Below, piece by piece: positions 22,597-38,046 of a DNA stretch of 64,000 nt (positions are counted from its first letter, which is position 1; every line of letters starts with the position of its first letter). Made by a program: the position numbers and the translations under genes. A model generated the notes under the pieces. The model saw nothing but the letters and a program-made list of their open reading frames with translations. It was not told the DNA's origin and did not search any database. The DNA comes from Mariprofundus aestuarium (GTDB taxonomy: Bacteria; Pseudomonadota; Zetaproteobacteria; Mariprofundales; Mariprofundaceae): assembly GCF_002795805.1 (NCBI RefSeq), contig NZ_CP018799.1, positions 124,001 through 188,000 on the forward strand. The letters are read 5' to 3'.

Positions 22597-22597
22597 T

Positions 22598-23290
22598 ATG
22601 CTGCTGCGTAACTTCCTGTCCGCTCTTGTGCTCCTGTTCATGCTTCCTGCTGTTGCAGGTGCTGGAACGGAGGGTGCTATGCGGGACTCCATCAAGCAGT
22701 TTTTTGCTCAGGGTGTCTATTTGCATGGCGCAAGGGCGGAGCTTGTTGAAGTTTTGCGCTGGCCGGATGCGACAGAAAAACTGCGCTGGAGAATGCCTGA
22801 GCTTAAAAACCACCCCGGCCAGCTCTCCCTGATTGCGGAAAGGGGGCAGGGGCAGTCACTGAAGCGCTGGTATGTTCCTGTGCGCCTGAACTGGTGGGCG
22901 AAAGCCGTTGTTGCCAGAAAAGACCTGCCAGTGCGTTCTCATCTGACGGCAGAGATGCTCAATATCGCCCGCATTAATGTTGCCGGCCATTCGGGATCCT
23001 GGTGGAGAAAAACTGAAGGGCTGATGGGTACACGCCTTACCCGCCCACTGAAAGCCGGGGATGCCATATTCGCATCCTATGTACACCGGCCCAAATTGAT
23101 CAGCCGTGGTGATCAGGTCACAATGATTGCCAGCTATGGCGGTCTCAAGGTGACAGCGGTCGGCAAGGCTCTTCGTTCAGCAGGGCTTGGTGATCGCCTG
23201 TCTGTGCGGAACCTTAAAAGCAAACAGGTTGTTCAGGGTGTAGTTGCAAGTGCATCCACAGTCCACATTCTCACCGGAGAAACGCTATGA
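22598..23290 (+). CDS. flgA: FlgA, P-ring assembly chaperone
   Basis: 230 residues with a signal peptide (MLLRNFLSALVLLFMLPAVAGAG). The C-terminal SAF-like domain has VVARKDLPVRSHLTAEMLNIARINV, LTRPLKAGDAIFASYVHRPKLISRGDQVTMIA and the YGGLKVTAVGKALRSAGLGD stretch. FlgA works in the periplasm to help FlgI assemble. The ATG lies one base after the flgG stop; a longer frame into flgG is unlikely because it would bury the signal peptide. It overlaps flgH as ATGA. Confidence 0.94.
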   Translation: MLLRNFLSALVLLFMLPAVAGAGTEGAMRDSIKQFFAQGVYLHGARAELVEVLRWPDATEKLRWRMPELKNHPGQLSLIAERGQGQSLKRWYVPVRLNWWAKAVVARKDLPVRSHLTAEMLNIARINVAGHSGSWWRKTEGLMGTRLTRPLKAGDAIFASYVHRPKLISRGDQVTMIASYGGLKVTAVGKALRSAGLGDRLSVRNLKSKQVVQGVVASASTVHILTGETL

Positions 23291-23994
23291 AACTAATATG
23301 GATTCTTGGATTGATCACTCTCCTTTCCGGCTGCATGCCTTCAGCAAAATCGGTCTCCACCGATGTTAACAAGGATAAGGTTGAGGCTGCCCTGCAGGCT
23401 CCTCTGCCCGACCCCTCACAAACCGGTTCGCTGTGGACAGGGAACAGCTCACAGCTGTTTACCGATGCCAAGGCGCGCAATGTCGGTGATCTGGTGACCG
23501 TGTTGGTTCTTGAGGAGGCCTCTGCAACCCGCAAGCTCGGAACAAAAAAGAGCAAGAAGTCGAGCCGGAAAACAGAGCTGAATGCTGCTTTCGGTGTTTT
23601 AGATGGCATTAATGCAGTAATTGCCAAAAATAAGCAGATATCCCCTCTTGATCCAAGAATTGGCATGGATATCAATGATGCATCAAGTTTCGATGGCAAC
23701 GGCTCTACAAACAATTCGGATACACTGACAGCAAGTGTGACTGCCGTGGTCACCAAGGTCTATCCGAATGGTAATCTGGAGATTACAGGGCGCAGGCAGG
23801 TAAGTATTAATCACCAGCCGCAGGCCCTTGTCTTTACCGGAATTATTCGCCCCAGCGACATCAGTTCAGACAATACCATCGCCTCTGCCAAGGTTGCACA
23901 GGCCATGGTCAGCTATGGCAGTGGCGGCGAACTTGCTGAGGTAGCACATCAGGGGTGGCTGGCACGCACGCTTAATGAAGTATGGCCATTCTAA
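23287..23994 (+). CDS. flgH: FlgH, L-ring lipoprotein
   Basis: 235 residues. A lipoprotein signal (MKLIWILGLITLLSGC) puts the lipidated Cys at 16. The conserved block NVGDLVTVLVLEEASATRK and the later NGNLEITGRRQVSINHQPQALVFTGIIRPSDIS are FlgH-specific. It forms the outer-membrane L-ring. The presence of flgH shows a Gram-negative envelope. GGAGA lies upstream and the ATG overlaps the flgA stop. Confidence 0.96.
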   Translation: MKLIWILGLITLLSGCMPSAKSVSTDVNKDKVEAALQAPLPDPSQTGSLWTGNSSQLFTDAKARNVGDLVTVLVLEEASATRKLGTKKSKKSSRKTELNAAFGVLDGINAVIAKNKQISPLDPRIGMDINDASSFDGNGSTNNSDTLTASVTAVVTKVYPNGNLEITGRRQVSINHQPQALVFTGIIRPSDISSDNTIASAKVAQAMVSYGSGGELAEVAHQGWLARTLNEVWPF

Positions 23995-24006
23995 AGGAGT
24001 ATGAGC

Positions 24007-25158
24007 ATGTATCCGGAATATGACGATCAGGCAACAAATGCACTCGGTGGCAAACTCTTTACGGCACTGTTCATGGCTTCACTTCTTCTGGTTGGCTTTT
24101 TTGCATCCTCAGCTGCGTATGCAGAACGCATCAAGGATCTGGCTACCATACAGGGCGTCCGCAGTAATGAGCTGATCGGCTACGGCCTTGTTGTTGGTTT
24201 GAATGGTACAGGCGACTCCTCCAACTCCTCCCCGTATACCATCAGCAGTATCAATGCCATGCTGGAGCGGTTTGGTATCAACGTACGTTCAAAAATTGCT
24301 ACCATGAAGCCCAAAAATATTGCGGCAGTTATGATTACGGCAACCCTGCCTCCGTTTGCAAGGCCCGGGCAGAAGCTGGATGTAACCGTCTCAAGCATGG
24401 GTGACTCAAAGAGTCTGCGTGGAGGCACGCTTCTGTTAACGCCGCTATTGGCTGGCAATAATCAGGTTTATGCGGTTGCACAGGGTGCTCTATCGGTGGG
24501 CGGCTTTACCGCTGGCGGCAATGCCGCATCGAAAACAGTGGGGCACCCGACAGTTGGACGTATACCAAACGGGGCCAATATCGAAAGGGCGGCCCCAACA
24601 GGCATGCGCTCAGGCCAGGATAAAGTGACACTGCAGTTGAATAACCCAGACTTCAGCACCATCAAACGCATGCGCGATGCCATCAATGCCAATTTCGGCG
24701 CAGACATGGCCAGAACTGTTGATGCAGGCACCATCGAGGTCTGGAATCCTGAGGCAGATGCGATTGAATTGATCGCGCGCCTGGAACAGATTGAGTTAAC
24801 CACAGACCACCGCGCTGTCGTGGTTATGGATGAACGCACTGGAACCATCGTTATGGGTCAGGAAGTGCGCATCGACACGGTAGCGGTAGCCCATGGCAGC
24901 ATCAGTGTTACGGTGACTGAATCACCGCAGGTCTCTCAACCCAATGCGTTTGCTGGCGGCGAAACAACGACCGTTGACCGCACTGATGTCCAGATCGAGG
25001 AAGAGGCAGCCCAGCTCGTTGTGCTGCCGAGGCAGGTCTCTCTGAGCACACTAGTCACCGCCTTGAATGCAGTTGGTGCAACGCCAAGCGATCTGATTGC
25101 AGTGTTACAGGCCATCAAGGCAGCCGGAGCACTGCATGCTGAACTGAGGGTGATATGA
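24007..25158 (+). CDS. flgI: FlgI, P-ring protein
   Basis: About 383 residues. A polar N-terminus is followed by a hydrophobic signal segment (FTALFMASLLLVGFFASSAAYAER), so a periplasmic location is expected. FlgI motifs are clear: RIKDLATIQGVRSNELIGYG, LVVGLNGTGDSS and the C-terminal LSTLVTALNAVGATPSDLIAVLQAIKAAGALHAEL. I chose the ATG at 24007; GGAG lies 7 bases upstream, whereas it would be only one base from the ATG at 24001. The stop overlaps flgJ. Confidence 0.95.
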   Translation: MYPEYDDQATNALGGKLFTALFMASLLLVGFFASSAAYAERIKDLATIQGVRSNELIGYGLVVGLNGTGDSSNSSPYTISSINAMLERFGINVRSKIATMKPKNIAAVMITATLPPFARPGQKLDVTVSSMGDSKSLRGGTLLLTPLLAGNNQVYAVAQGALSVGGFTAGGNAASKTVGHPTVGRIPNGANIERAAPTGMRSGQDKVTLQLNNPDFSTIKRMRDAINANFGADMARTVDAGTIEVWNPEADAIELIARLEQIELTTDHRAVVVMDERTGTIVMGQEVRIDTVAVAHGSISVTVTESPQVSQPNAFAGGETTTVDRTDVQIEEEAAQLVVLPRQVSLSTLVTALNAVGATPSDLIAVLQAIKAAGALHAELRVI

Positions 25159-25562
25159 GCGAGATGAATCTCACTCCGGCAATATTGGCCATGTCCCAGG
25201 GCAGTACGCAGGCACGGGCACAGGAAGCCGGCAATGCCAAATCATCGGTTCAGCAGGATGCTCATACAAAAGACCCTGCCCTGTGGGACGTAAGCTTGAA
25301 GTTCGAGGCCATGCTGATGCAGCAGATGATGTCAGCGATGCGTAAGACAGTGCCGCAGGATGGGCTGATGTCTTCAGGGTTTGCCAATGACATGTATTCA
25401 TCCATGTTTGACCAAGCTATTGCAGAAACCAGCAGTAAAAGTGGGAGCCTTGGTATAGCGGAAAACATCTATCGCCAGATGAGTGCCAACCATCCGATTA
25501 AGGAAAATCCAATATCTGCCGATATAAATAGAGATAACCCTTCTACCAGGCCAGAGGAGTAA
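25155..25562 (+). CDS. flgJ: FlgJ rod-capping domain, without the muramidase domain
   Basis: 135 residues, matching only the N-terminal FlgJ rod-assembly domain (LKFEAMLMQQMMSAMRKTVPQDGLMSSGFANDMYSSMFDQAIAE). The C-terminal glycosidase domain found in Salmonella FlgJ is absent. This short form is common outside enterobacteria, where a separate lytic enzyme opens the wall; the tandem transglycosylase at 29877-31043 is a candidate. The ATG overlaps the flgI stop. Confidence 0.9.
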   Translation: MSEMNLTPAILAMSQGSTQARAQEAGNAKSSVQQDAHTKDPALWDVSLKFEAMLMQQMMSAMRKTVPQDGLMSSGFANDMYSSMFDQAIAETSSKSGSLGIAENIYRQMSANHPIKENPISADINRDNPSTRPEE

Positions 25563-25568
25563 GCGGAT

Positions 25569-25862
25569 ATGGTACGAATTGACAAATCGACAGGTATTAA
25601 TGCTCCGGCTGCCATGGGGTCAGCAAAGAAAAAGCGTGAGACCAACAAGGGCGGTTCAACAGCTAAAGGCGGACAGATTCATGTTGGCGATGCATCAGCT
25701 CTGCGTGAGAAAGCAAAGGTTATGTTATCCGACATATCCGACGTGCGTATGGAGCGAATCGAAGAGATTCGCAATGCACTGGAGGATGGCAGCTATCAGG
25801 TCAATGAACAGGATGTTGCAGTGCAGATTGTAACCAACGCCTTGGGAGAAAAACCATGGTAA
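25569..25862 (+). CDS. flgM: FlgM, anti-sigma-28 factor
   Basis: 97 residues. The polar, disordered first half and the conserved C-terminal region (DISDVRMERIEEIRNALEDGSYQVNEQDVAVQIVTNAL) are typical of FlgM. It binds FliA and is exported through the hook, releasing FliA. It is encoded just before flgN, the classic order. Its end overlaps the flgN start. Confidence 0.92.
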   Translation: MVRIDKSTGINAPAAMGSAKKKRETNKGGSTAKGGQIHVGDASALREKAKVMLSDISDVRMERIEEIRNALEDGSYQVNEQDVAVQIVTNALGEKPW

Positions 25863-26305
25863 TGCACTCCCAGGCAGCTGAAAACCTGCAATCCCTTCTC
25901 AAGGAGATGGACTCCTCTATCGCTGCAATCGAAGAAATCATTCCGCTGGAGCAGGCAGCCATAGGTCAACTTGACGCTAAGGAAATTCTTAGACTGACAG
26001 AAAAGAGAAAGCTGCTCTGGCAGGAACTTAAGGGCAGTAAATCTCAGTGCCAGCTGCTGTTTCAGCAGCATGATATGCCGCAGGAGAGCGGCCTCAGTCA
26101 GTTTATTGACGCCTATCTGGCAGAAGATGCTGAAGACCTTCACAGGCAGCGGCAGGAGCTCAATGAACGGATTATAACCATCAGCCGGGAGAATGAATTC
26201 AATGCCATTCGCCTCAAGGCCGCTGGAGATACTGTTGCCAGTACCCTGCAAGGTCTCGGACTGATGAAAACCAATGCTACTTACGGTCAGGATGGCACGC
26301 TGTGA
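25856..26305 (+). CDS. flgN: FlgN-family export chaperone
   Basis: 149 residues, predicted all helical. The FlgN pattern is seen in LLKEMDSSIAAIEEIIPLEQAAIGQLDAKEILRLTEKRKLLWQEL. It is expected to chaperone FlgK and FlgL, which follow directly. Start uncertain between ATG at 25856 and ATG at 25862; the GGGAG upstream suits 25856. The stop overlaps the flgK start. Confidence 0.82.
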   Translation: MVMHSQAAENLQSLLKEMDSSIAAIEEIIPLEQAAIGQLDAKEILRLTEKRKLLWQELKGSKSQCQLLFQQHDMPQESGLSQFIDAYLAEDAEDLHRQRQELNERIITISRENEFNAIRLKAAGDTVASTLQGLGLMKTNATYGQDGTL

Positions 26306-28023
26306 TTGTCCGGACCCTTCAAGTCGCATCCAAAAGCCTGACAACTCAGCAGCAGGCCATGGATACAGTTTCGCAGAATATTGCCAACGTAAATACACCG
26401 GGTTATTCACGCCAGACGGCTAATCTCACCACCTCCAGGCCAGACAGGATCGGGGTAATGAACTTCGGAAATGGTGTCGAACTGGCAAGTATTACTCGCT
26501 CCATGGACCCTTTGGTGGCCAACGCCCAGGTCTCTAATAACTCCCTGTCATCCTTTGCCAATACGATGAGGGATGGGTTGACTAGTGTTGAAGCCACCTT
26601 CGGCAGTCTTGGGGCTCCGGGGCTAACCTCCACACTGGATGCATTCTTCACCGCTCAGCAGCAGCTTACCAACTCACCTGGTGACCCGATTACCCGAACA
26701 GATATGGTGGCCAAAGCGAACGACTTTACAAACCTGACTACCAGTATGCAGCAGCAGCTGGTTTCAAGGCAGCAAAGCGCCGACGTGGAAGTCGGTGTAC
26801 AGGTCGATAATGTCAATATAGTGCTTGATAAAATTGCTGAGCTGAACAAGCAGATTGTTCGCAATGAAACCGGAGGTCAGGTTTCTGGTGCAGCTAACGA
26901 CCTGAGAGACCAGCGAGACCTCGCCATCATGGAGTTGGCAGCAATTATCCCTATTCAGCGGGTGACCACACAAAACGGTGGTCTTATGTTACAAACGCCC
27001 GGAGGAGACTTGCTTGTTCAGGATGGATTAGTGCGTCACCTGCAAATGGGGCCGGTTGCGGGTTCCTCTTTTAGTCAGGTTCAGTTTGCTGATAGTGGGC
27101 TGCCTGCGACAGGCATTGAAAGCGGGGGGAAAATCGGCGGCCTTGTAACAATCAGGGACTCCCAACTGGCCAGCTATATTGATGCGCTCGACAGCCTAGC
27201 TCAGAATATTATTTTCTCTGTCAACCAAATGCATGCGGGTGGCACGGGCACAACAGCCGTAACCAGTTACACATCGGGACTTCCTGCTGCCAATGCTGCA
27301 GCTCCAGTAAGCGGTGATGCTGCTATTCCCTTTGCTTCCAAAATAGTAAATGGCTCCTTCACCATACATGTTCTGGATGGCCCTCCGGCAACCAATCCAG
27401 GTGGTACAGCCATCAATATCACGGCGGGCACAACTAGTCTCAACCAGATTGCTGCCGACATATCAGCCGTTGCAGGTGTTACGGCTACTGTCGATGCATC
27501 AGGCGCTTTGGTCATCAATGGCGGAGCAAACCGCGTTGCTTTCTCTAATGACAGCAGTAATTTTTTAGCTGCCTATGAGATCAATACATTCTTCCATGGC
27601 GGCGGAGCTTCAGACATCAGTGTTGATGCAGCAATCGTGGGTGACCCTGGGCGTATTGCTACCGCCACCGCAGACGCCACTACCTCTGCCGTGGCAATCA
27701 TGGATAACAGCGCTGCCATGAATATCCTTGCTCTGCGCGATCAAGCTATGAATGTGGATGGAGGCACACCTTCAACCCTGATTCAGCGCGCTGCCAATAT
27801 GGCTGGCCAGTTTGGCCTGGATGTTGCCACCGCCACTCAGGAAAGCGTATTTCGCACAGCTCAGGCGGCCGCCCTTTCAGTCCAGCGTGAGTCTGTTTCC
27901 GGAGTAAACCTGGATGAGGAGATGATTAATATGATGGTCTTTCAACGTAGCTATGAGGCTTCTGCCAAGGTTATCCAGACAGCGAACCAAATGCTTACTA
28001 CTTTGATGGGGATACTGCGATGA
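26302..28023 (+). CDS. flgK: FlgK, hook-filament junction protein 1
   Basis: 573 residues with the N-terminal axial motif TVSQNIANVNTPGYSRQ and the C-terminal helix VSGVNLDEEMINMMVFQRSYEASAKVIQTANQMLTTLM. It lies between the hook and filament. It starts with GTG, overlapping the flgN stop as GTGA. A central stretch rich in Ala, Gly and Thr (about residues 310-470) is the variable domain. It has the flagellar D0/D1 ends expected of HAP1. Confidence 0.95.
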   Translation: MIVRTLQVASKSLTTQQQAMDTVSQNIANVNTPGYSRQTANLTTSRPDRIGVMNFGNGVELASITRSMDPLVANAQVSNNSLSSFANTMRDGLTSVEATFGSLGAPGLTSTLDAFFTAQQQLTNSPGDPITRTDMVAKANDFTNLTTSMQQQLVSRQQSADVEVGVQVDNVNIVLDKIAELNKQIVRNETGGQVSGAANDLRDQRDLAIMELAAIIPIQRVTTQNGGLMLQTPGGDLLVQDGLVRHLQMGPVAGSSFSQVQFADSGLPATGIESGGKIGGLVTIRDSQLASYIDALDSLAQNIIFSVNQMHAGGTGTTAVTSYTSGLPAANAAAPVSGDAAIPFASKIVNGSFTIHVLDGPPATNPGGTAINITAGTTSLNQIAADISAVAGVTATVDASGALVINGGANRVAFSNDSSNFLAAYEINTFFHGGGASDISVDAAIVGDPGRIATATADATTSAVAIMDNSAAMNILALRDQAMNVDGGTPSTLIQRAANMAGQFGLDVATATQESVFRTAQAAALSVQRESVSGVNLDEEMINMMVFQRSYEASAKVIQTANQMLTTLMGILR

Positions 28024-28901
28024 GAATCACATCACAAAGCATCTATGATTCGCTACTGGCCGGCATTCGCAATCAGATGCAGGTGCAGCGTGATGGGGCG
28101 GATCAGGTCAGTAGTGGCAGGCGCTTCTCCAGTCCGAGCCAGGATGGCGTTGCCTATAAAACATCACTGGATATCCGCCATGTCCAGAGCGGTATTGATT
28201 CAAGCCTTAGCGCTATCGGTGTGGCAAAGTTGCGGCTGGGCGTCAGTGAAAATGCTCTGGCGCAATTCATTCCAATCATGCAGAGAGCCCAAGTTCTTGC
28301 CGTTCAGCAAGCGAACTCAGGGCTTACTGCCAGCGAGCGCCAGACTGCTGCTGTAGAGGTCGCGGCACTGGAAAACCAGCTGATTTCTCTGGCAAACACT
28401 GCCTTTGAAGGCAAGTCCTTGTTTGCCGGCACAGCTACGGACGTACAACCCATTCAGATAGATGCTCTTGGAAATGCTGTCTATCAGGGTAATACCCAGG
28501 ATAGAACCGTAGCCATTACTCCGACAGAAAGTATGGTCAGTAATGTGCGAGGAGACCACACAGCATTCACACAGGTCTTTTCATCCATCAAGTCGTTGAA
28601 AGACTCACTTAGTGGCAATAATGTGCCTGGCATTCAGGCCTCTATCGACCTGCTATCCAGCGCTTCCAGTGCAATGGTAGGCCTTGACGCCGAGGTCGGT
28701 GGTAAACTGAACTCTATTAATTTACGCGAAGAGACGCTGCTGAATATGAAGACACAGATGCTGATTAAGCTTAACCAACACGAAGGCGTAGATTTAGCAG
28801 CAGTGGCCACAAATCTGAAGCAGTCGGAGTCATCTCTGCAGGCAGCTTATGTTCAAGTATCCAACTTCAACAAACTGAGCCTGGTAAACTTCCTGAGATG
28901 A
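28020..28901 (+). CDS. flgL: FlgL, hook-filament junction protein 3
   Basis: 293 residues. The N-terminus is flagellin-like (MRITSQSIYDSLLAGIRNQM, then VSSGRRFSSPSQDGVAYKTSLDIRH) and the C-terminus has VDLAAVATNLKQSESSLQAAYVQVSNFNKLSLVNFL. It joins FlgK to the filament. It overlaps flgK and csrA by ATGA at both ends, so translation of flgK-flgL-csrA is coupled. Confidence 0.94.
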   Translation: MRITSQSIYDSLLAGIRNQMQVQRDGADQVSSGRRFSSPSQDGVAYKTSLDIRHVQSGIDSSLSAIGVAKLRLGVSENALAQFIPIMQRAQVLAVQQANSGLTASERQTAAVEVAALENQLISLANTAFEGKSLFAGTATDVQPIQIDALGNAVYQGNTQDRTVAITPTESMVSNVRGDHTAFTQVFSSIKSLKDSLSGNNVPGIQASIDLLSSASSAMVGLDAEVGGKLNSINLREETLLNMKTQMLIKLNQHEGVDLAAVATNLKQSESSLQAAYVQVSNFNKLSLVNFLR

Positions 28902-29125
28902 TAGTCCTGCGCAGGACGCTTGGGCAGGCAATTCATATAGGCGATGATATCCGGATTGTTGTTACTGAAACCGAAAAAAATGGTCGAGTTCATCTGGGCA
29001 TAGAAGCACCAGATGCAGTCAGTATTCATCGCCTGGAAATTTACGAGAAGATTCAGGCCGAAAACTTCGCAGCTATCAACGGCAACATTTTGGATTGGCT
29101 CAAGGGGATATCAAATGAAGGGTAA
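28898..29125 (+). CDS. csrA: CsrA-family RNA-binding regulator, divergent copy
   Basis: 75 residues. The CsrA core is recognisable (MIVLRRTLGQAIHIGDDIRIVV) with the key L4, R6 and the Arg of the VSIHR motif (R45; the protein has one extra residue). The Glu that follows this Arg in other CsrAs is Leu here. It is flagellin-cluster CsrA, expected to bind GGA motifs in mRNA leaders. It overlaps flgL at its start and fliW by 11 bases at its end, and a second CsrA lies beyond fliW. The divergence may mean altered RNA or FliW binding. Confidence 0.88.
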   Translation: MIVLRRTLGQAIHIGDDIRIVVTETEKNGRVHLGIEAPDAVSIHRLEIYEKIQAENFAAINGNILDWLKGISNEG

Positions 29126-29570
29126 AAGCGCAGGCTGGAAAGCAAAAATTGAAGTCGATGATGCAAAGCTTCTAAGTTTTCCTCATGGTATGGTTGGATT
29201 CTCTGAAGATAGAGAGTTCGTTGTTCTGAACTCTGGCACTGGCGACATCGTTTGCCTCCAGTCCACTAAACGACCCGAAGCATCTTTCCTGATGACCCTC
29301 TGGGATAATGAGCGATTAGGTTCACCACCACCCCTGACCCCGGACCAAAAGGCAACGCTAAAGCATAGTGACGACTCTCAGTTGCTCTGGTTCTTGGTGC
29401 TCAATCCGTTTGCTGATAAGGACTGGGTACTGGCCAATCTGAAAGCTCCTGTAGCGATGAACCTGGATCGCGGGATTGGTATGCAATGCATTCAGGCGAA
29501 TCCAAAGCTTGAGCTTCGCTACCAATGGATGCCACAGCCATCTAAGGCTGATGACAAGAAAGCGGCCTGA
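29115..29570 (+). CDS. fliW: FliW, flagellar assembly factor and CsrA antagonist
   Basis: 151 residues. Conserved FliW parts are FPHGMVGFSEDREFVVLNS and the later DWVLANLKAPVAMNLDRGIGMQCI. FliW binds flagellin and CsrA in turn, linking flagellin level to its own translation (known from Bacillus and Campylobacter). I chose the ATG at 29115, which overlaps the first csrA by 11 bases. A longer frame upstream of it is inside csrA. It sits between two csrA genes, which is a striking arrangement. Confidence 0.92.
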   Translation: MKGKSAGWKAKIEVDDAKLLSFPHGMVGFSEDREFVVLNSGTGDIVCLQSTKRPEASFLMTLWDNERLGSPPPLTPDQKATLKHSDDSQLLWFLVLNPFADKDWVLANLKAPVAMNLDRGIGMQCIQANPKLELRYQWMPQPSKADDKKAA

Positions 29571-29612
29571 TGCAGTCGGCAATACTATTAACTCAGGGGC
29601 GATAATTTATTT

Positions 29613-29840
29613 ATGCTCATCCTCTCTCGCATGGCTGGTGAAACGATCATGATCGGCAACGACATCCGCATTCAGGTGCTCTCAAGTAAGAACGGCCAGG
29701 TACGCATTGGCATCAATGCTCCCAGAAGTATCCCCGTTAAACGTGAAGAGATAATCAATCAGGAAAAAACAGAGGTGTCGGATGACTTACCCGCTATTGA
29801 GACGCCTGCTTTATCTAAACAGGGTTCAGAACCGATCTAG
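29613..29840 (+). CDS. csrA: CsrA, second copy, canonical
   Basis: 75 residues: MLILSRMAGETIMIGNDIRIQV, then GQVRIGINAPRSIPVKREEI, with R44 and both Glu residues as in standard CsrA. The C-terminal extension (about 20 residues) is polar. A 42-base gap from fliW separates it. It is the more typical of the two copies and likely the one closest to a global CsrA. Confidence 0.93.
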   Translation: MLILSRMAGETIMIGNDIRIQVLSSKNGQVRIGINAPRSIPVKREEIINQEKTEVSDDLPAIETPALSKQGSEPI

Positions 29841-29850
29841 CCCATCAAGT

Positions 29851-29866
29851 TTGGCATGGTCAATGC
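29851..29866 (+). promoter_or_regulatory. Sigma-54 promoter candidate for the transglycosylase gene
   Basis: TTGGCATGGTCAATGC, with GG and GC 10 bases apart. It lies 11 bases before the transglycosylase ATG at 29877. The expected transcription start (about 29878) would coincide with the ATG, so the message would be leaderless unless a later start codon is used. Confidence 0.6.
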
Positions 29867-29876
29867 TTAGTAATAA

Positions 29877-31043
29877 ATGATGAGTCCGCCAACCATAGCC
29901 CAACCGATTATTCAAGAAACGCATCTGCGCACAAACAACCGTATGCGCCCGGTTGCAAATGGCCAGGCGGATGCATTTCGTCAATCACTGAGAACCCATG
30001 TCAACAACCACAAAGCCGACGAAGCGAACCTGAAGCGAATCATTCACAAGGCAGCGCAATCCAACGGTCTTGATCCGGGCTTGATAAGGGCTGTGATTCA
30101 GGCGCAGAGCAATTGTGATCCCAAAGCTATTTCTCCGGCAGGAGCGCAGGGTTTAATGCAGCTGATGCCGGAAACAGCTGCCGAGCTCGGCATCACTGAT
30201 GCATTTGATCCGGAACAGAATGTCATGGGTGCCAGCCGCTACCTGAAAAGCCTCGTTGATCGCTACGATGGTGATATGGGCCGTGCCCTTAGAGCTTATA
30301 CATGGGGTATGGGGAATGTGGATAGGAATCCGAATCCACCACCGCTGGAGGTTGAAAGGTTTGTTGCAAAGGTCTCCGCAGCAGCATCTCTGGGTGTCGC
30401 AACAGAGCGGACACCCACCAGTACCCTGTTGGCTGAAATGTCAGCTGCTGTCCAAATCAGGCCAGAACAAACGTTCCGGTTGGATGCGGTTCAATACAAA
30501 GCGAAGCGAAGTGGTGTGGATGGCATTATTCATCAGGCGGCTCAACACTATAAGCTGAATCCAGACCTGATTGCTGCTGTTATCCATACCGAAAGTAATT
30601 TTGACAAAAATGCCGTATCACACGCCGGAGCTCAGGGGCTGATGCAGTTGATGCCAGCTACGGCAGCGGAACTCGGCGTCACAAACCCTTTTGATCCAGA
30701 GCAGAACATCATGGGTGCCAGTCGCTACCTGAAGGGGCTTGTTGAGCGCTACGATGGTGACCTGCGCCTTGCTCTTGCCGCTTATAACTGGGGAATGGGG
30801 AACCTTGAACGTCACCCCGGCAGGCTGCCTGCAGAGACATCAAACTACATTGCAAAGGTACTGGCCTTGATTCCGACAGAGGTGAAATATACCGTGGCTA
30901 CAGGTGAAATGACTCCTGCTGCGGAGCAGCGTTCGCGACAGGTGGGGCAAGAAGCAATATCCCCTGACAAAATATCACCAACCATTGGGCAGGCGACACA
31001 GGCCTATGCTCCTGATTCTCTTCGGATAAAAACCAGCGTCTGA
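29877..31043 (+). CDS. Tandem lytic transglycosylase-like protein (first domain degenerate)
   Basis: 388 residues with two SLT domains in tandem. Domain 1 (about 51-167) and domain 2 (about 215-332) align closely, each with AGAQGLMQLMP and DPEQN.MGASRYLK. In domain 2 the catalytic Glu (HTESN, E239) and AYNWG are present. In domain 1 the Glu is Gln (QAQSN, Q77) and the motif is AYTWG, so domain 1 is probably inactive. There is no signal peptide, so export may use the flagellar type III system or the protein may act in the cytoplasm. FlgJ here lacks its own muramidase domain, so this may open the wall for the rod. Start uncertain (29877 or 29880). Confidence 0.85.
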   Translation: MMSPPTIAQPIIQETHLRTNNRMRPVANGQADAFRQSLRTHVNNHKADEANLKRIIHKAAQSNGLDPGLIRAVIQAQSNCDPKAISPAGAQGLMQLMPETAAELGITDAFDPEQNVMGASRYLKSLVDRYDGDMGRALRAYTWGMGNVDRNPNPPPLEVERFVAKVSAAASLGVATERTPTSTLLAEMSAAVQIRPEQTFRLDAVQYKAKRSGVDGIIHQAAQHYKLNPDLIAAVIHTESNFDKNAVSHAGAQGLMQLMPATAAELGVTNPFDPEQNIMGASRYLKGLVERYDGDLRLALAAYNWGMGNLERHPGRLPAETSNYIAKVLALIPTEVKYTVATGEMTPAAEQRSRQVGQEAISPDKISPTIGQATQAYAPDSLRIKTSV

Positions 31044-31159
31044 TTCTAAGGGGATGAAAGCCCTCACCATTGAGGAGTCTAAACCCTATGTGGTTCGATT
31101 TTTTTAATGATAAGTAGTCTGAAAGTGTGAATTAAACTGCGCATGTGCCCCTATATCTG

Positions 31160-31477
31160 TCAACTCAGGGTAGAGGCCACCTGACTGGAGCTGTTTAGTC
31201 TTTTGCTGGCGCCTTCAACAGCAGAAAGTTTATCAGCTGTTTCTTTTAACTTCTGTGAGACAAGCCTCTGCAGTCGACGATGCTGCTGATCAAGGTGTAC
31301 CATGGCCTGCAGGGCAGCATTATCCATATCGCCTGCAGTGACCTCCGCTTTCAGCCGCATGAAGGTTTGCTCATATTCAGACTCAAACGTTGAGAGTTTC
31401 TGCCACTTGTCTGCCCGTATAAAGCGCAGCATGCTCTCTATTAGGCGCAGACAATGTGAAATATGGTGGTCAATCAT
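31160..31477 (-). CDS. fliT: FliT-like flagellar chaperone
   Basis: 105 residues, all helical and highly charged (MIDHHISHCLRLIESMLRFI, then AALQAMVHLDQQHRRLQRLVSQKLKETADKL). It fits a FliT-type chaperone for the cap protein FliD by position and size; sequence similarity alone is weak. The ATG overlaps the fliS stop as TAATG. The 116-base gap to the transglycosylase gene is convergent and holds no terminator I can support. Confidence 0.65.
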   Translation of the reverse strand: MIDHHISHCLRLIESMLRFIRADKWQKLSTFESEYEQTFMRLKAEVTAGDMDNAALQAMVHLDQQHRRLQRLVSQKLKETADKLSAVEGASKRLNSSSQVASTLS

Positions 31478-31878
31478 TAATAACCATTGACCTGTCTTGA
31501 CTGGGAGGGTGAATTGCCGTCAGCAAGCCCCTGCCACCCTTCGCGAAGGGTGTTTGCAAGTGCCAACACCTCATCAATAGCTTCTGCAATGTCACCGCCA
31601 GCATTAGCTTCTATGAGCCTTCGGTTCATATAGGCATAAAGGCTGCCTAGGCTGCTAGCGATTGTTCCTCCATTTTCTGAATCCAGACTTGTAACAAGCT
31701 CGACAAGTGCTTCTATTGCGCGAGAAAGGTTTTGTGCCTCCGCGGCATAGTTTTTCTCCTCACCTGCGAACTTGGCAAGGTTCAATGACTTAATCAAAAC
31801 ATCATAAGTCAAAAGCACCAACTCAAGCGGGTTGGCACCCTCTACCTGAACGCCGCGATATTTTTGATATCCTGTCAT
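31477..31878 (-). CDS. fliS: FliS, flagellin export chaperone (copy 1)
   Basis: 133 residues starting MTGYQKYRGVQVEGANPLEL, the FliS signature with the helix bundle after it (LVLLTYDVLIKSLNLAKFAGEE). FliS holds the C-terminus of flagellin and prevents early assembly. I chose the ATG at 31878, which has AGGAGAATTCG upstream. It lies between fliD and fliT and has a second copy at 35923-36321. Confidence 0.93.
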   Translation of the reverse strand: MTGYQKYRGVQVEGANPLELVLLTYDVLIKSLNLAKFAGEEKNYAAEAQNLSRAIEALVELVTSLDSENGGTIASSLGSLYAYMNRRLIEANAGGDIAEAIDEVLALANTLREGWQGLADGNSPSQSRQVNGY

Positions 31879-31889
31879 CGAATTCTCCT

Positions 31890-34268
31890 CTATCTCTGGT
31901 TCGAACTCATTGCATTGATCTGCTGGCCCAGCCATGCACCTGTAGCATTGGATTGAGACATAAATCGTTCCATCGCCAAGAACTGGCTCATAAGACGCTC
32001 CCGCTCCTTACCTAGTTGTAAGGTCAGGCTGTCAATCTGTGACTGTAGGCTGTCATATGTACTAACCGATGAATCAATACTCATCTGAGTTAGACCGGTA
32101 ACAGGAAACGTATAAGCCTCTAGAGTGCTGCTCATTTGGGCTGCAAGCCCAAGGTTCACGGACATAGTACCAATAGCGCCAGTGGCTGTTCCGGAGTAGG
32201 CCAACAATAAGCCATCAATATTGCCGCTGCTTCCGGTAAGTACTTGTCCATTTCCGGTGGCAGCAATTCCTCCAATTGTTCCAGCTACATCCTGACCAGC
32301 ATATGTCTGGTCTATAATGCCTAGGTTATTGGCGGACTGTGCAACCGTGAAACTCTCCGCGGATCCATAATCATTGCTCTGCAGTTGCAGGAAGTTTCCA
32401 GAAGCGGCGGCTGTAAGTTGCATGGCATGACGCCCCTCCTGAACAACCGTATCAGCTCCGAATGCAAGGGATCCGCCGCCCTCATTGTTAGCGGTCATAG
32501 AGAGTGTAAGGTTGCTATCCCCTGTCTGGTTGTCGGTAATGGTGACCTGTCCTGATGCATTCAAACTGGCCGTAATATTCTGCCCAAATTCCACCTGAAT
32601 GGAGGCCAAAAGATCCGCAATAGTGTCAGTTGCCGGGTCCGAAACAGTAAAGGCATAGTTAACTGCAGAGCCGAATCGGCTTGTGCCGCCAATAGTAATG
32701 GTATCGCCCGCCACAATTCCAAGGCTGCCACCGGCGCCATCGGTCAAATCCTGCAACAGCGATGCGCTGGTGGCAGGCGTACCAAGCCCGGTGACCAGAG
32801 CCGTGCTCATCTGGCGCTGCTCTGTATAGGTTGCAGCAAACTCAGCATTAAGAGCAGAAGCAATACTACTCAAACTCTGGCCATTGGTAAGGTTTACTAC
32901 AGCCTGGCGAGCTGATCCATCTGTAATGGTCACCTGCTCGGCTCCGGCAAGTCCGGCCGAAAGGTCTGTTGCGCCAGTTGCTGTAGCCTGCAGGGCAGCA
33001 GCTGTAATATTCACTGCATAGCTGCCAGCTACTGTGTTCGCTCCATATGTTAGGAATTCCAAGGCAGAATTGTCGCTCGTGCCACTTGCAGCGAAAAGAT
33101 CCCGTACGGAGTTAGGGTCAGTGGTCAGCAGGTTGTCCAGTCTGGATGAGTTGATGCCAAGATGTCCTTTACTGTCCGGCTCTACGCCGATCATGGCCAA
33201 GCTGTTTCTGTCGCTGGCCAAGCCCGAAACAGTGGTAAGCAGGCTTCCAGCTAGCTGAGACTTGACCTGACGTAATAAAGACTCATTGGCAAGAGGGCCA
33301 CTTGTCTTGGTATCAGGATTGAAAGTCATTTGCGCATTGATGAAGTCCATTACCTCGTTGTAGCTATCTACAACCGCTTGGACCTTCCCCTTTACAGCCG
33401 TCGCATCAATAGACGTATTCACTGTGATGGTTGTAGCTGGATCGGCACTTTTCAAATCAAGCGTATAGCCGGCAAGGGCATCGCTGATCGAGTTGCTTTC
33501 ACGGCTAATTGTAATGTTGTCCACATCGATAGAGGCATCAGCCGCGGCCTGCAGGGTTTGCCTTGCATTACCCTGGGCAGTAGCACCAAGCTGTAGGTTG
33601 GCAAGACCTCCAGCCGCATCCAGGTCTGTACCGGCAAGATTTACCACACCATTGGTCAAGCCGGTATCATCGGCGGCCAGAACCAAGCGGAAATCACTGG
33701 TTCCAACCTTGAGAATGCTTGCGCTCACGCCAGTGGCATCACTTCCCGTATTCAACTGGTTGATTTTATCCCTTATGTCTCGAAGTGAGTCCGTGCTTGC
33801 CACATCGATAGTTTTTGCGCTCGCGGATTTACCCTGAATGGTAAAAGTTCCAGCTGTGTAGCCTAAGCCAGCCGTATCACTAGTGATGGCGGTGCCTGTT
33901 GAATCTTTGACGGCTGAACTTGAGCCCAGTTTCTCAGCCGCAGCCAGCTGATTTACCTTAATGGTGTGGCTGCCCGTTGCAGCGCTTGATGATGGTGTTA
34001 CAGTCAGTAGTGAATCTGCACTCGTAGCGGTGTTGCTTCCAAGCGTTGACTGATTTACCAGGAAGTTAGCTTGATTGGCCAGTTCGAGAAACTTGGAACG
34101 CAGTGATGAGAGTGATGAGTCCAGTTGACTAATGAGCCTCTGCTTGATCAACTCATCAGCCTGCTTATCTTGCAAGAGGGTTACCTTTCTACCCTCAATC
34201 TTCATTAGCTGATCGACAATGTTTGCCGAATCAATGCCTGACGACAATCCTGATATGCTACTCACCAT
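31890..34268 (-). CDS. fliD: FliD, filament cap protein
   Basis: 792 residues, long for a FliD, which is usually about 450-670. The N-terminus (ISGLSSGIDSANIVDQLMKIEGRKVTLLQDKQADE) and the C-terminus (STYDSLQSQIDSLTLQLGKERERLMSQFLAMERFMSQSN) are clear FliD parts. The extra length is in the Gly/Ala/Thr-rich middle. It caps the growing filament. AGGAGCG lies upstream of the ATG. It sits between flaG and fliS. Confidence 0.93.
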   Translation of the reverse strand: MVSSISGLSSGIDSANIVDQLMKIEGRKVTLLQDKQADELIKQRLISQLDSSLSSLRSKFLELANQANFLVNQSTLGSNTATSADSLLTVTPSSSAATGSHTIKVNQLAAAEKLGSSSAVKDSTGTAITSDTAGLGYTAGTFTIQGKSASAKTIDVASTDSLRDIRDKINQLNTGSDATGVSASILKVGTSDFRLVLAADDTGLTNGVVNLAGTDLDAAGGLANLQLGATAQGNARQTLQAAADASIDVDNITISRESNSISDALAGYTLDLKSADPATTITVNTSIDATAVKGKVQAVVDSYNEVMDFINAQMTFNPDTKTSGPLANESLLRQVKSQLAGSLLTTVSGLASDRNSLAMIGVEPDSKGHLGINSSRLDNLLTTDPNSVRDLFAASGTSDNSALEFLTYGANTVAGSYAVNITAAALQATATGATDLSAGLAGAEQVTITDGSARQAVVNLTNGQSLSSIASALNAEFAATYTEQRQMSTALVTGLGTPATSASLLQDLTDGAGGSLGIVAGDTITIGGTSRFGSAVNYAFTVSDPATDTIADLLASIQVEFGQNITASLNASGQVTITDNQTGDSNLTLSMTANNEGGGSLAFGADTVVQEGRHAMQLTAAASGNFLQLQSNDYGSAESFTVAQSANNLGIIDQTYAGQDVAGTIGGIAATGNGQVLTGSSGNIDGLLLAYSGTATGAIGTMSVNLGLAAQMSSTLEAYTFPVTGLTQMSIDSSVSTYDSLQSQIDSLTLQLGKERERLMSQFLAMERFMSQSNATGAWLGQQINAMSSNQR

Positions 34269-34279
34269 TTTGAACGCTC

Positions 34280-34645
34280 CTAGGCATTCCTATCAAGGAT
34301 CATGCCAATCATCTCACTCATGGCGGCCTGCTGCTCAATCAGCTTCTTGGGCGGAATTTCCCGCACGACTTCGCCTGTTGCGTTATCCTTGATCTGCACA
34401 TAGAGCCGGTTCAAACGCTCTTCATAACCAAAGCTCAATCGTTCACTTGAAGCTGCTGTCAATCGGGCATTCGCTTGATCAACGGCTTTCTTAATAGCTT
34501 CATTGTCAATAGGTGTGTCTTGCTTCTGTAGTGTTTTATCTAAATCTTTCGAGTTGCTTACAACAAGGGGCTTTTGCTGCGCCGCTGTTCCTATGGCACT
34601 AGAAGTAGTTGCTGATGAAGATGAAATTGCACTTATTTCATTCAT
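34280..34645 (-). CDS. flaG: FlaG family protein (copy 1)
   Basis: 121 residues with a Ser/Thr/Gln-rich N-terminus and the FlaG block LSFGYEERLNRLYVQIKDNATGEVVREIPPKKLIEQQA near the C-terminus. FlaG is linked to filament length in other bacteria. The ribosome site is strong (AAGGAGG). A close copy lies at 36429-36800, with the C-terminal half almost identical. Confidence 0.92.
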   Translation of the reverse strand: MNEISAISSSSATTSSAIGTAAQQKPLVVSNSKDLDKTLQKQDTPIDNEAIKKAVDQANARLTAASSERLSFGYEERLNRLYVQIKDNATGEVVREIPPKKLIEQQAAMSEMIGMILDRNA

Positions 34646-34753: not shown

Positions 34754-35590
34754 TTAACGGAACAGTGAAAGAACGTTCTGCGAAGACTGGTTGGCCTGAG
34801 CCAGCATTGATGTGCCAGCCTGCACCAGAACCTGAGACTTCGTGAAGTCAGCCATCTCTTTCGCCATGTCGGCATCCTTGATGGTTGAGATCGAGGCACT
34901 TACCTGCTCCATCTGAGTCGCCAGATTAGCACTTACGTAGCTCAGCTGGTTCACAGCAGCACCGAATGCAGCACGGTCTGTGGTCAGGCCGTCCAGTGCA
35001 GTATTGAGGGTGTCAATAGCTGCAGCAGCGCCAGAGGCAGAAGCAAGGTCAATGGCAGTAATGCCCAAGCCAGTTGAAGCTGTAGTGAAGTCTGCACTGA
35101 AATCAACCGCCACCTGGTCATTAGCACTGTTTGCAGCGCCAACCTGGAAGGTGGTAGTGGAAGCTCCGCTACCGTCGAGCAGCTTGGTGCCGTTGTAGTT
35201 AACACCGTTGGCGATTTTGTCGATCTGACCAAGAAGGTTAGCAGCCTCGCCAGCCAGCTTGGTGCGCTCATTTGAACCGTTGTTCGCACTTGAAGCCTGA
35301 GTTGCCAGAACCTGCAAACGACGAACCATGTTCTCAATCTCATTTACACCAGATTCAGCAGTTTTCACCATGGCGGTTGCCTGAAGTGAATTCTGAGAAG
35401 CTGCTTCCAGCTTGCCTTTTTCGCCCTGAAGCTTAGCTGAAATCGCATAACCTGCTGCATCGTCTGATGCAGAGTTAATCCGGAAGCCCGAAGACAAGCG
35501 CTCCAGTGACTTGTTCATGTTTGACGAGTTGATGTTCATGTTCTTCAGGGCTGAGATTGAACCCATGTTGGTTTGTACGGACATTGCCAT
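34754..35590 (-). CDS. fliC: Flagellin (copy 1)
   Basis: 278 residues with flagellin D0/D1 ends: LERLSSGFRINSASDDAAGYAISAKL at the N-terminus and the C-terminal helix (STIKDADMAKEMADFTKSQVLVQAGTSMLAQANQSSQNVLSLF). The middle (about 140-200) is short and rich in Ala, Thr and Ser and would be the exposed region. Copy 3 encodes the identical protein; copy 2 differs at three residues. AAGGAGAG lies upstream. A sigma-28 promoter lies at 35699-35725. Confidence 0.97.
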   Translation of the reverse strand: MAMSVQTNMGSISALKNMNINSSNMNKSLERLSSGFRINSASDDAAGYAISAKLQGEKGKLEAASQNSLQATAMVKTAESGVNEIENMVRRLQVLATQASSANNGSNERTKLAGEAANLLGQIDKIANGVNYNGTKLLDGSGASTTTFQVGAANSANDQVAVDFSADFTTASTGLGITAIDLASASGAAAAIDTLNTALDGLTTDRAAFGAAVNQLSYVSANLATQMEQVSASISTIKDADMAKEMADFTKSQVLVQAGTSMLAQANQSSQNVLSLFR

Positions 35591-35667
35591 AATATTCTCT
35601 CCTTAGTATGTTAAATAGGTTACGTAAACGACATCATGCCCTGTTACGTTCGAGCCTCTGGGCTCTT

Positions 35668-35689
35668 CCGGTAAGGTTCTTTCTCCCGG
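35668..35689 (-). promoter_or_regulatory. Leader hairpin with GGA motif, flagellin copy 1 (CsrA site candidate)
   Basis: On the minus strand CCGG arms enclose a loop with a GGA. A further GGA follows in CCGGAAG, and the ribosome site (AAGGAGAG) holds a third. The matching site of copy 3 is at 38960-38981, where the stem is six base pairs. Confidence 0.45.
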
Positions 35690-35698
35690 CACATATAT

Positions 35699-35725
35699 CT
35701 ATCGACAGAGAGATCTCCAACTTTA
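35699..35725 (-). promoter_or_regulatory. Sigma-28 promoter, flagellin copy 1
   Basis: On the minus strand TAAAGTT then a 15-base spacer counted from TAAA and GTCGATAG, close to the sigma-28 consensus TAAA-N15-GCCGATAA. It lies 109 bases before the ATG. The same element occurs at the other two flagellin genes. Confidence 0.85.
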
Positions 35726-35816
35726 ATTTTTTTTCAGATATTTCTGGCTGCTGAAGAGGCAGTCGCGATTGGGCTGTGGGCGGAAGAGGCTAACTACCCC
35801 GGTTGCGGCACAAAAG

Positions 35817-35848
35817 AAGCCGGCCAGAGGTTGCCCCCTGGCCGGCTT
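35817..35848. terminator. Strong hairpin terminator between fliS copy 2 and flagellin copy 1
   Basis: AAGCCGGCCAG and CTGGCCGGCTT arms form an 11-base stem with a 10-base loop. T-rich flanks exist on both sides. It ends transcripts arriving from the upstream (higher-coordinate) genes and isolates the flagellin copy 1 promoter. The same hairpin is at 37972-38003. Confidence 0.8.
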
Positions 35849-35891
35849 CTTTCTTTTTATTGCTGTTTAAGCTGTTCTATATCTGTTTCGA

Positions 35892-35923
35892 TTAACGGAA
35901 CAGTGAATGGTGTTGATTATCAT
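35892..35923 (-). pseudogene. Remnants: fliT start fused to a flagellin 3' tail
   Basis: Just after the fliS copy 2 stop an ATG overlaps it as TAATG, exactly as fliT begins after fliS copy 1, but only a few fliT-like codons follow. The sequence then becomes the last codons of flagellin (Ser-Leu-Phe-Arg-stop, 35892-35907) followed by the flagellin 3' flank. This is a deletion or recombination junction, not a working gene. Confidence 0.7.
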
Positions 35924-36321
35924 TAATAACCATTAACCTGTCTTGCTTGGGGGGCTGAGTTAGCGTCGGCCAAGCCCTGCCACCCTTCCCGCAGGGTATT
36001 TGCTAGTGATAGCACCTCATCAATGGCAGCAGTTGTGTCGCCGGCGCTACCCTCCATGATTCTGCGACTCATATAGGTGTAGAGGTTGCCTAAGCTGGCG
36101 GCTATTGCACCACCATTCTCCATGTCGAGGCTGGTAACAAGCTCAACCAGCGCTGCAATTGCTCGTGAAAGTTGATCCGCTTCGGCTGCATGGTTGTTCT
36201 CTTCCCCTGCAAGCTTGGCCAGGCTCAGGGATTTGATCAAAACATCATAGGTCAAAAGGATAAGTTCCAATGGGTTAGCCCCTTCTACCTGTACACCGCG
36301 ATACTTCTGATATCCTGTCAT
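35923..36321 (-). CDS. fliS: FliS, flagellin export chaperone (copy 2)
   Basis: 132 residues, MTGYQKYRGVQVEGANPLEL, very close to copy 1 with scattered substitutions. GGAGATTAGC precedes the ATG. It lies after flaG copy 2, with no fliD between them. The next sequence after its stop is a broken fliT/flagellin junction, so this copy has lost its usual partner. Flagellin chaperoning would be redundant. Confidence 0.92.
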   Translation of the reverse strand: MTGYQKYRGVQVEGANPLELILLTYDVLIKSLSLAKLAGEENNHAAEADQLSRAIAALVELVTSLDMENGGAIAASLGNLYTYMSRRIMEGSAGDTTAAIDEVLSLANTLREGWQGLADANSAPQARQVNGY

Positions 36322-36428
36322 GCTAATCTCCTATTATCCCTGATAAAGGCGCTGAGTTGATTTTTGACCTGACCATGAAACTGCTGCCAAGCCTGATACA
36401 CAGGTGGAGCTAATCAAGACGAATGCTG

Positions 36429-36800
36429 CTACGCACTCCTGTCAAGGATGATGCCAATCATTTCACTCATGGCGGCCTGCTGCTCAATCAGCTTCTTGGG
36501 CGGAATTTCCCGCACGACTTCGCCTGTTGCGTTATCCTTGATCTGTACATAGAGCCGATTCAATCGCTCTTCATAACCAAAGCTCAGATGCTGGTTGGAT
36601 GCTGCTGTCAGCTGGGTGTTCGCCTGCGCGACGAGCTTCTTAACGGTCTCGCTATCAACAGGTTTTTCTTGCTGCTGTAGCGAATTGACTGCTTTTTCTT
36701 CAGTTGAAACTGGTTGTTTTTGTTGCTGAATCTTTGGTTGCGTTGCGGCACTAGAAGTAGCTGTTGATGAAGCAATACTATTAATATTGATCGCATTCAT
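36429..36800 (-). CDS. flaG: FlaG family protein (copy 2)
   Basis: 123 residues. The C-terminal half matches copy 1 almost exactly (FGYEERLNRLYVQIKDNATG) and the N-terminal half has diverged (MNAININSIASSTATSS). The upstream ribosome site is the same. It follows flagellin copy 2. A 107-base gap to fliS copy 2 holds nothing I recognise as fliD. Confidence 0.92.
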   Translation of the reverse strand: MNAININSIASSTATSSAATQPKIQQQKQPVSTEEKAVNSLQQQEKPVDSETVKKLVAQANTQLTAASNQHLSFGYEERLNRLYVQIKDNATGEVVREIPPKKLIEQQAAMSEMIGIILDRSA

Positions 36801-36836
36801 AACAATTTACCTCCTTTTAATTTATTGAGATGAGAG

Positions 36837-36867
36837 AAGCCGGCAAAGGTATTGCCTCAACCGGCCC
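36837..36867 (-). terminator. Stem-loop after flagellin copy 2
   Basis: The same GCCGG/CCGGC stem-loop as at 34682-34712, at 36839-36843 and 36861-36865, between fla copy 2 and flaG copy 2. Confidence 0.5.
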
Positions 36868-36909
36868 CTCTTTCTACTCATGGCTTAAGCTGTTCTATAT
36901 CTGTTTCGA

Positions 36910-37746
36910 TTAACGGAACAGTGAAAGAACGTTCTGCGAAGACTGGTTGGCCTGAGCCAGCATTGATGTGCCAGCCTGTACCAGTACCTGAGACTTCGTG
37001 AAGTCAGCCATCTCTTTCGCCATGTCAGCATCCTTGATGGTTGAGATCGAGGCACTTACCTGCTCCATCTGAGTCGCCAGGTTAGCACTTACGTAGCTCA
37101 GCTGGTTCACAGCAGCACCGAATGCAGCACGGTCTGTGGTCAGGCCGTCCAGTGCAGTATTGAGGGTGTCAATAGCTGCAGCAGCGCCAGAGGCAGAAGC
37201 AAGGTCAATGGCAGTAATGCCCAAGCCAGTTGAAGCTGTAGTGAAGTCTGCACTGAAATCAACCGCCACCTGGTCATTAGCACTGTTTGCAGCGCCAACC
37301 TGGAAGGTGGTAGTGGAAGCTCCGCTACCGTCGAGCAGCTTGGTGCCGTTGTAGTTAACACCGTTGGCGATTTTGTCGATCTGACCAAGAAGGTTAGCAG
37401 CCTCGCCAGCCAGTTTGGTGCGCTCATTTGCACCGTTGTTCGCACTTGAAGCCTGAGTTGCCAGAACCTGCAAACGACGAACCATGTTCTCAATCTCATT
37501 TACACCAGATTCAGCAGTTTTCACCATGGCGGTTGCCTGAAGTGAATTCTGAGAAGCTGCTTCCAGCTTGCCTTTTTCGCCCTGAAGCTTGGCTGAAATC
37601 GCATAACCTGCCGCATCGTCTGATGCAGAGTTAATCCGGAAGCCCGAAGACAGGCGCTCCAGTGACTTGTTCATGTTGTTTGAGTTGATGTTCATGTTCT
37701 TCAGGGCTGAAATGGAACCCATGTTGGTTTGTACGGACATTGGCAT
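36910..37746 (-). CDS. fliC: Flagellin (copy 2)
   Basis: 278 residues, differing from copies 1 and 3 only by Pro at residue 2, Asn for Ser in the NINSNNMN segment and Ala for Ser in NNGANERT. Other features are as copy 1. The high identity of coding and flanking sequence means recent duplication or gene conversion. A sigma-28 promoter lies at 37855-37881. Confidence 0.97.
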   Translation of the reverse strand: MPMSVQTNMGSISALKNMNINSNNMNKSLERLSSGFRINSASDDAAGYAISAKLQGEKGKLEAASQNSLQATAMVKTAESGVNEIENMVRRLQVLATQASSANNGANERTKLAGEAANLLGQIDKIANGVNYNGTKLLDGSGASTTTFQVGAANSANDQVAVDFSADFTTASTGLGITAIDLASASGAAAAIDTLNTALDGLTTDRAAFGAAVNQLSYVSANLATQMEQVSASISTIKDADMAKEMADFTKSQVLVQAGTSMLAQANQSSQNVLSLFR

Positions 37747-37854
37747 AATAATCTCTCCTTAGTATGTTAAATAGGTTACGTAAACGACATCATGCCCTGT
37801 TACGTTCGAGCCTCTGGGCTCTTCCGGTAAGGTTCTTTCTCCCGGCACATATAT

Positions 37855-37881
37855 CTATCGACAGAGAGATCTCCAACTTTA
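37855..37881 (-). promoter_or_regulatory. Sigma-28 promoter, flagellin copy 2
   Basis: Same element as copy 1: minus-strand TAAAGTT, 15-base spacer from TAAA, GTCGATAG. The flanks are nearly identical to those of copy 1. Confidence 0.85.
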
Positions 37882-37971
37882 ATTTTTTTCAGATATTTCT
37901 GGCTGCTGAAGAGGCAGTCGTGATTGGGCTGTGGGCGGAAGAGGCTAACTACCCCGGTTGCGGCACAAAAA

Positions 37972-38003
37972 AAGCCGGCCAGAGGTTGTCCCCTGGCCGG
38001 CTT
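37972..38003 (-). terminator. Rho-independent terminator of flagellin copy 3
   Basis: AAGCCGGCCAG/CTGGCCGG-type arms (11 bases) with a short loop, followed on the minus strand by a run of seven T. It directly follows the flagellin copy 3 stop. It is the best terminator in the cluster. Confidence 0.85.
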
Positions 38004-38046
38004 CTTTCTTTTTACTGCGGTTTAAGCTGTTCTATATCTGTTTCGA

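Follow-up and report, generated by a model that had tools for sequence, protein, structure and literature searches.

A putative flagellum-linked lytic transglycosylase of Mariprofundus aestuarium with a degenerate N-terminal SLT copy

Outside a few models, it is unsettled how the cell wall is opened for the flagellar rod in bacteria with a short FlgJ. A gene located in a 64,000-nucleotide stretch of the Mariprofundus aestuarium genome (this whole stretch is referred to as the window) provides a compact test case, because it encodes a lytic transglycosylase (LT) that is apparently exported by the flagellum and that carries what appears to be a natural dead copy of its catalytic domain. The locus raises two questions: why a protein should keep an altered SLT domain beside an intact one, and whether this protein serves the flagellum. 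The genome carrying the window (G000) is a single contig of 2,537,610 bases, and its nearest relative (G008) is a complete Mariprofundus-like genome of 2.30 Mb on one contig. A preliminary description had assigned two SLT domains to the protein, referred to here as P0001, and two PF01464 matches, both above the curated cut-off, agree with this assignment (91 bits at nt 30039-30329 and 105 bits at nt 30528-30815). The two domains are 58% identical, and GLMQLMP is present in each, at residues 92 and 254. The answer favoured here, held jointly with the whole explanation developed below and with confidence only slightly better than even, is that P0001 is a flagellum-linked LT whose N-terminal SLT copy turned pseudoenzyme after a domain duplication. 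The features on which the argument draws are collected in Table 1.

Table 1. Features of the P0001 locus and of related flagellar genes, in window coordinates
Feature	Coordinates	Strand	Basis or remark
flgJ, 135 aa, rod-binding domain only	25155..25562	+	
flgL	28020-28901	+	upstream gene
csrA (first)	28898-29125	+	upstream gene
fliW	29118-29570	+	upstream gene
csrA (second, csrA2)	29613-29840	+	upstream gene
Sigma54-like -24/-12 site TTGGCATGGTCAATGCT, tentative	29851..29867	+	between csrA2 and P0001 gene
Tandem-SLT lytic transglycosylase P0001, 388 aa	29877..31043	+	ORF and two PF01464 matches
N-terminal region (aa 1-48) without Sec signal; putative type III (flagellar) export signal	29877..30020	+	family-wide FxxxPhi
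F34-R-Q-S-L38, gate-recognition-motif-like FxxxPhi	29976..29990	+	motif definition from FlgD (PMC8983047)
Domain 1, aa 49-171, SLT fold, degenerate active site	30021..30389	+	
Q77 codon CAG, catalytic Glu position	30105..30107	+	Slt70 E478, MltE E64
T142 codon ACA	30300..30302	+	Asn in 91/91 relatives (Slt70 N553)
V159 codon GTT	30351..30353	+	Thr in 91/91 relatives
F162 codon TTT	30360..30362	+	Tyr in 91/91 relatives (Slt70 Y587, MltE Y192)
Linker, aa 172-210, predicted disordered, fast-evolving	30390..30506	+	dN/dS 0.63 (G000 vs G008); pLDDT <50
Domain 2, aa 211-333, SLT, complete active site E239/N304/T321/Y324	30507..30875	+	
C-terminal extension, aa 334-388, not in single-domain relatives, near-neutral	30876..31040	+	dN/dS 0.99 (G000 vs G008)

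The two active sites were compared with those of 91 single-SLT relatives drawn from congeners, from other Pseudomonadota, from Geobacter and allied taxa and from Bacillota, and residue equivalences were taken from alignment to Slt70 and MltE of E. coli MG1655. The alignment confirmed the catalytic position named in the preliminary description, which had paired Q77 and AYTWG (140) in domain 1 with E239 and AYNWG (302) in domain 2, the latter Glu being equivalent to Slt70 E478. The same description had noted that both catalytic-motif positions changed together, and the change proved to be wider than that. At the 27 columns that are invariant in all of the single-domain relatives, domain 1 deviates at six (E77Q, V106I, G119A, N142T, T159V and Y162F) and domain 2 at one, G119A, which is common to both domains. 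Residues Q77, T142, V159 and F162 thereby replace a Glu, Asn, Thr and Tyr found in 91/91 relatives. In MltE, E64 is both catalytic acid and base and Y192 belongs to the modelled catalytic layer (PMC5841429), while in Pseudomonas a Tyr holds the catalytic Glu of SltB1 and SltB3, and an Asn touches MurNAc at -1 in a model of SltB2 (PMC12547810). An E580Q substitution in the Borrelia flagellar LT gave a phenotype like that of deletion (PMC8517470). Domain 2 has the features of SLT family 1, including the catalytic Glu; domain 1 lacks both this Glu and the partner Tyr in both genomes.

That domain 1 might be a decaying remnant of duplication, or its Gln77 an error in this one sequence, is hardly credible and already contradicted, even though the stem branch in the domain tree is longer for domain 1 (0.68) than for domain 2 (0.32). 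The G008 ortholog, which is 91% identical to P0001, shares the Q77 codon and all four active-site changes, so that a sequencing error is ruled out. Comparison of the two genomes gives, for domain 1, 21.5 synonymous changes against 4.5 that are nonsynonymous (dN/dS 0.053; Fisher p 1.6e-10), a ratio of about 0.05 that indicates strong purifying selection rather than decay. The corresponding dN/dS values are 0.131 for domain 2 and 0.47 for the N-terminal region, with higher, near-neutral values for the linker and the C-terminal tail. Synonymous sites are saturated between the two domains, from which it follows that the duplication is old, and this too argues against a recent relic. When 78 genomes of the class were searched by pattern, AYTWG at the domain 1 site occurred in G000 and G008 only; two other matches to the Thr motif (L213, L215) proved to be short unrelated frames.

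With four active-site columns altered jointly, the changes fixed in two species and the fold kept under strong purifying selection after loss of the catalytic residues, the earlier reading of domain 1 as a pseudo-enzyme is well supported by the sequence comparison. Continued cleavage by domain 1, with a different acid or a changed specificity, is highly improbable: E158 (Slt70 E583) is present and might be proposed for the task, but it is found in all relatives as well and hence is no replacement acid, and the acid, the partner Tyr that hydrogen-bonds to it and the adjoining Asn and Thr are all lost.

What domain 1 is kept for is suggested by the residues that it has not lost. It retains S86, M97, Y141 and E158, which by position correspond to the sugar contacts of Cj0843, S399, M410, Y463 and E498 (PMC5951611). 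Chemistry thus appears to have been removed from domain 1 while the glycan groove was largely kept, and because the sugar-contact residues are intact, glycan binding is the favoured function. Structures exist in the PDB for engineered counterparts, namely MltE E64Q with chitopentaose (4HJY), MltE Y192F (6GHZ) and Slt E503Q (6FCQ). The main rival, considered rather unlikely, is that domain 1 serves as a non-catalytic spacer or a protein-docking module, with FlgJ or the rod among its conceivable partners. It draws on the position of the domain, which sits where single-domain relatives have a variable region of roughly 100 residues, on the strong selection acting on the whole fold, and on Borrelia, where interaction of the LT with FlgJ was reported and its non-catalytic N-terminal part was speculated to bind FlgJ (PMC8517470). 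Pure docking, however, would not require the sugar-touching groove residues that domain 1 has kept.

Modelled alone, domain 1 gave a mean pLDDT of 82.5 and a helical SLT layout, with confidence lowest near the active-site loops. Its nearest PDB matches were lytic transglycosylases and a g-type lysozyme, at E-values of 0.007 and above, and Foldseek returned no match below 1e-3 for this model. The full-length model (mean pLDDT 65.8), in which the N-terminus, linker and tail are disordered, says nothing reliable about the predicted domain arrangement.

Internal duplication is the likely, not proven, origin of the two domains. A 109-row domain tree pairs them with support of 96/88, and they have in common two derived residues that are almost absent in relatives (A119/A281 and V127/V289), yet an AU test did not reject the grouping of domain 1 with congeneric single-domain proteins (p 0.52). 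The view of the two domains as certain sisters was therefore dropped, as the test allows other placements of domain 1.

Evidence bearing on the route by which P0001 leaves the cytoplasm comes from its N-terminus, which had been described as lacking a signal peptide. Direct reading of this region agreed, in that no Sec or lipoprotein signal is visible in P0001, nor is a Sec signal evident in the single-SLT relatives. The five other SLT proteins of G000 have Sec, lipoprotein or membrane N-termini as judged by eye. The missing signal is better explained by an N-terminus that resembles the export signals of early flagellar type III substrates. In Salmonella FlgD, a hydrophobic signal occupies residues 2-5 and a gate recognition motif, FLTLL, residues 36-40, and export of early substrates improves as the separation between hydrophobic signal and gate motif nears ~24-30 residues (PMC8983047). 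FlgD, FlgE and FlgG of E. coli were found in the present analysis to have a comparable motif at 35-41. P0001 carries F34-RQSL, at the distance from the start (~30-40 residues) that characterizes early substrates, and FxxxPhi begins at residue 29-38 in 34/50 distinct (non-redundant) family N-termini, as against 3.3 (maximum 10) over 2000 shuffles. Among neighbouring ORFs the motif was found in 32/331 (9.7%; Fisher p 2e-18 versus the family). Start codons of the family were assigned by a simple rule, so that the FxxxPhi count is probably too low, and 58/91 relatives start with MSI, MSL or similar. Because a Sec signal is lacking and FxxxPhi is conserved as in early substrates such as FlgD, P0001 is probably exported through the flagellum by an early type III signal. 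As far as the literature searches go, such a family-wide export motif has not been described previously. The single-SLT proteins with FxxxPhi near residue 30 (L010-L020, L038-L117) are candidates for widespread flagellum-exported LTs.

In both G000 and G008, flgK-flgL-csrA-fliW-csrA is followed by the P0001 gene, which faces the convergent genes fliT-fliS-fliD; fliW is flanked by the two csrA genes, and this trio lies immediately upstream of the P0001 gene. Most other congeners examined have a different gene after fliW, in several cases a YihY-like gene (named from sequence only), and a single-SLT relative, when present in these congeners, sits away from fliW. Elsewhere too, members of the family lie among unrelated genes, and the idea that the family keeps a conserved place in the flagellar operon was rejected, as this position is found in G000 and G008 only among the genomes examined. 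For three Geobacter relatives (L092:6058-7518, L098:6250-7680 and L046:6162-7571), the gene immediately follows that of an NtrC-family sigma54 activator and cheA is close by, a neighbourhood that fits a link to motility.

A sigma54-like site lies in the stretch between csrA2 and the P0001 gene, which is identical in G008, and similar sites precede flgB, flgF and motA. Since the window holds 33 such sites versus 13 in shuffles, the site upstream of P0001 is suggestive only. Transcription from this site would begin at the ATG or close to it, which would mean either a leaderless message or a different start codon.

These observations bear on the possibility that P0001 is an ordinary non-flagellar LT whose place after csrA is incidental, which we regard as unlikely, although its position is conserved in two genomes only and relatives are found near housekeeping genes. 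Against it stand the early-export-like N-terminus shared across the family, the lack of a Sec signal in P0001, the resemblance of the upstream sigma54-like site to those of flgB and flgF, with the caveat on numbers given above, and the co-occurrence of the family with FlhA, which is present in 41/45 of the family-carrying genomes tested, a figure that covers carriers only.

The late flagellar cluster itself (window 22559-34645) may have an unusual history. The late genes flgK and flgL of G000 and G008 have only 32-46% identity to those of most congeners and 62-66% to those of G026, which belongs to another genus and shares the csrA-fliW-csrA order; these values point to a possible replacement of the cluster through horizontal transfer. 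Window positions 34754-38883 hold three flagellin genes that are nearly identical (at 34754, 36910 and 38047), and flaG (34280, 36429) and fliS (31477, 35923) are duplicated as well.

Whether P0001 supplies the muramidase that FlgJ lacks, as the preliminary description had suggested, received a divided answer. Its premise held, as FlgJ of the window is indeed confined to the rod-binding domain; P0001 has no rod-binding domain, and neither protein is a dual-domain FlgJ. The only glucosaminidase-domain protein of the genome (L211, G000:C1:241882-242250, in a 289-aa frame) is not part of FlgJ and is encoded beyond the window. P0001 may plausibly take over the hydrolase role of FlgJ in G000 and G008. 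As a general rule the proposal did not stand: a short FlgJ without the hydrolase domain occurs in nearly all flagellated congeners, any relative of P0001 occurs in only about half of them, and the relatives examined lie outside the flagellar operon. The family therefore does not substitute for the FlgJ hydrolase in general, nor is it essential for flagella, and the proposal that a short FlgJ must be accompanied by this LT was rejected on the same grounds.

Taken together, flagellar export, cutting by domain 2 and gripping of glycan by domain 1 make up a reading that we judge modestly probable as a whole. Guided by the N-terminal FxxxPhi at 34-38, P0001 would be exported by way of the flagellar type III gate instead of Sec and would refold in the periplasm. 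There, domain 1 would grip glycan strands through its preserved groove, in the manner of an engineered E-to-Q substrate trap, while the flexible linker would give local reach and keep domain 2 near the rod exit site, where its cutting of peptidoglycan would open the wall locally. A naturally occurring SLT domain with the E-to-Q change, maintained by purifying selection, would demonstrate that an LT fold can take on a second use as a glycan-binding module. The FxxxPhi motif that the single-domain proteins have in common predicts, in turn, that an entire group of wall enzymes is exported by the flagellum. The broader proposal, that a natural pseudo-LT has become a built-in glycan-binding module, joined to an active SLT domain in a protein that the flagellum itself delivers, and that it belongs to a widespread, unrecognized type III-exported family in Geobacter, Magnetococcales, Mariprofundus and Bacillaceae, is more tentative and falls somewhat short of an even chance.

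There are precedents for flagellar LTs, for LTs that are proteins distinct from FlgJ and for E-to-Q LTs made by engineering. Fixed-phrase literature searches, which are weak evidence of absence, found neither natural inactive or tandem LT domains nor a natural, selected pseudo-SLT fused to an active SLT. CwlQ of Bacillus subtilis, the one case known from experiment, is reportedly secreted by the flagellar type III system, a finding attributed to Sanchez et al. in 2021. CwlQ (YjbJ) belongs to the flagellar sigmaD regulon, and both LT and muramidase activity have been reported for this SLT enzyme (PMC10653849). It has a single SLT domain versus the two of P0001, and the likeness is drawn from the description of CwlQ; the Bacillaceae members of the single-SLT family have the same early-export-like N-terminus as the rest of that family. 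Borrelia LTaseBb (BB0259) and Rhodobacter SltF are, as in G000, separate LTs paired with a single-domain FlgJ, and the catalytic Glu of flagellar LTs lies in an ES-GLMQ-AYNAG motif (PMC8517470). These enzymes have a Sec or lipoprotein signal and one SLT domain, whereas P0001 lacks a Sec signal and has a pair of SLT domains, of which one is apparently dead. The single-SLT AYNWG family of Mariprofundus, Geobacter, Magnetococcales and Bacillaceae has ~45-68% identity to domain 2 and shares the N-terminal FxxxPhi, but, unlike P0001, its members lack domain 1 and the C-terminal extension and are not found beside flgL-csrA-fliW. Finally, MltE E64Q, MltE Y192F and Slt E503Q were made in the laboratory from single-SLT enzymes, while equivalents of the two MltE substitutions occur naturally in domain 1 of P0001, as Q77 and F162.
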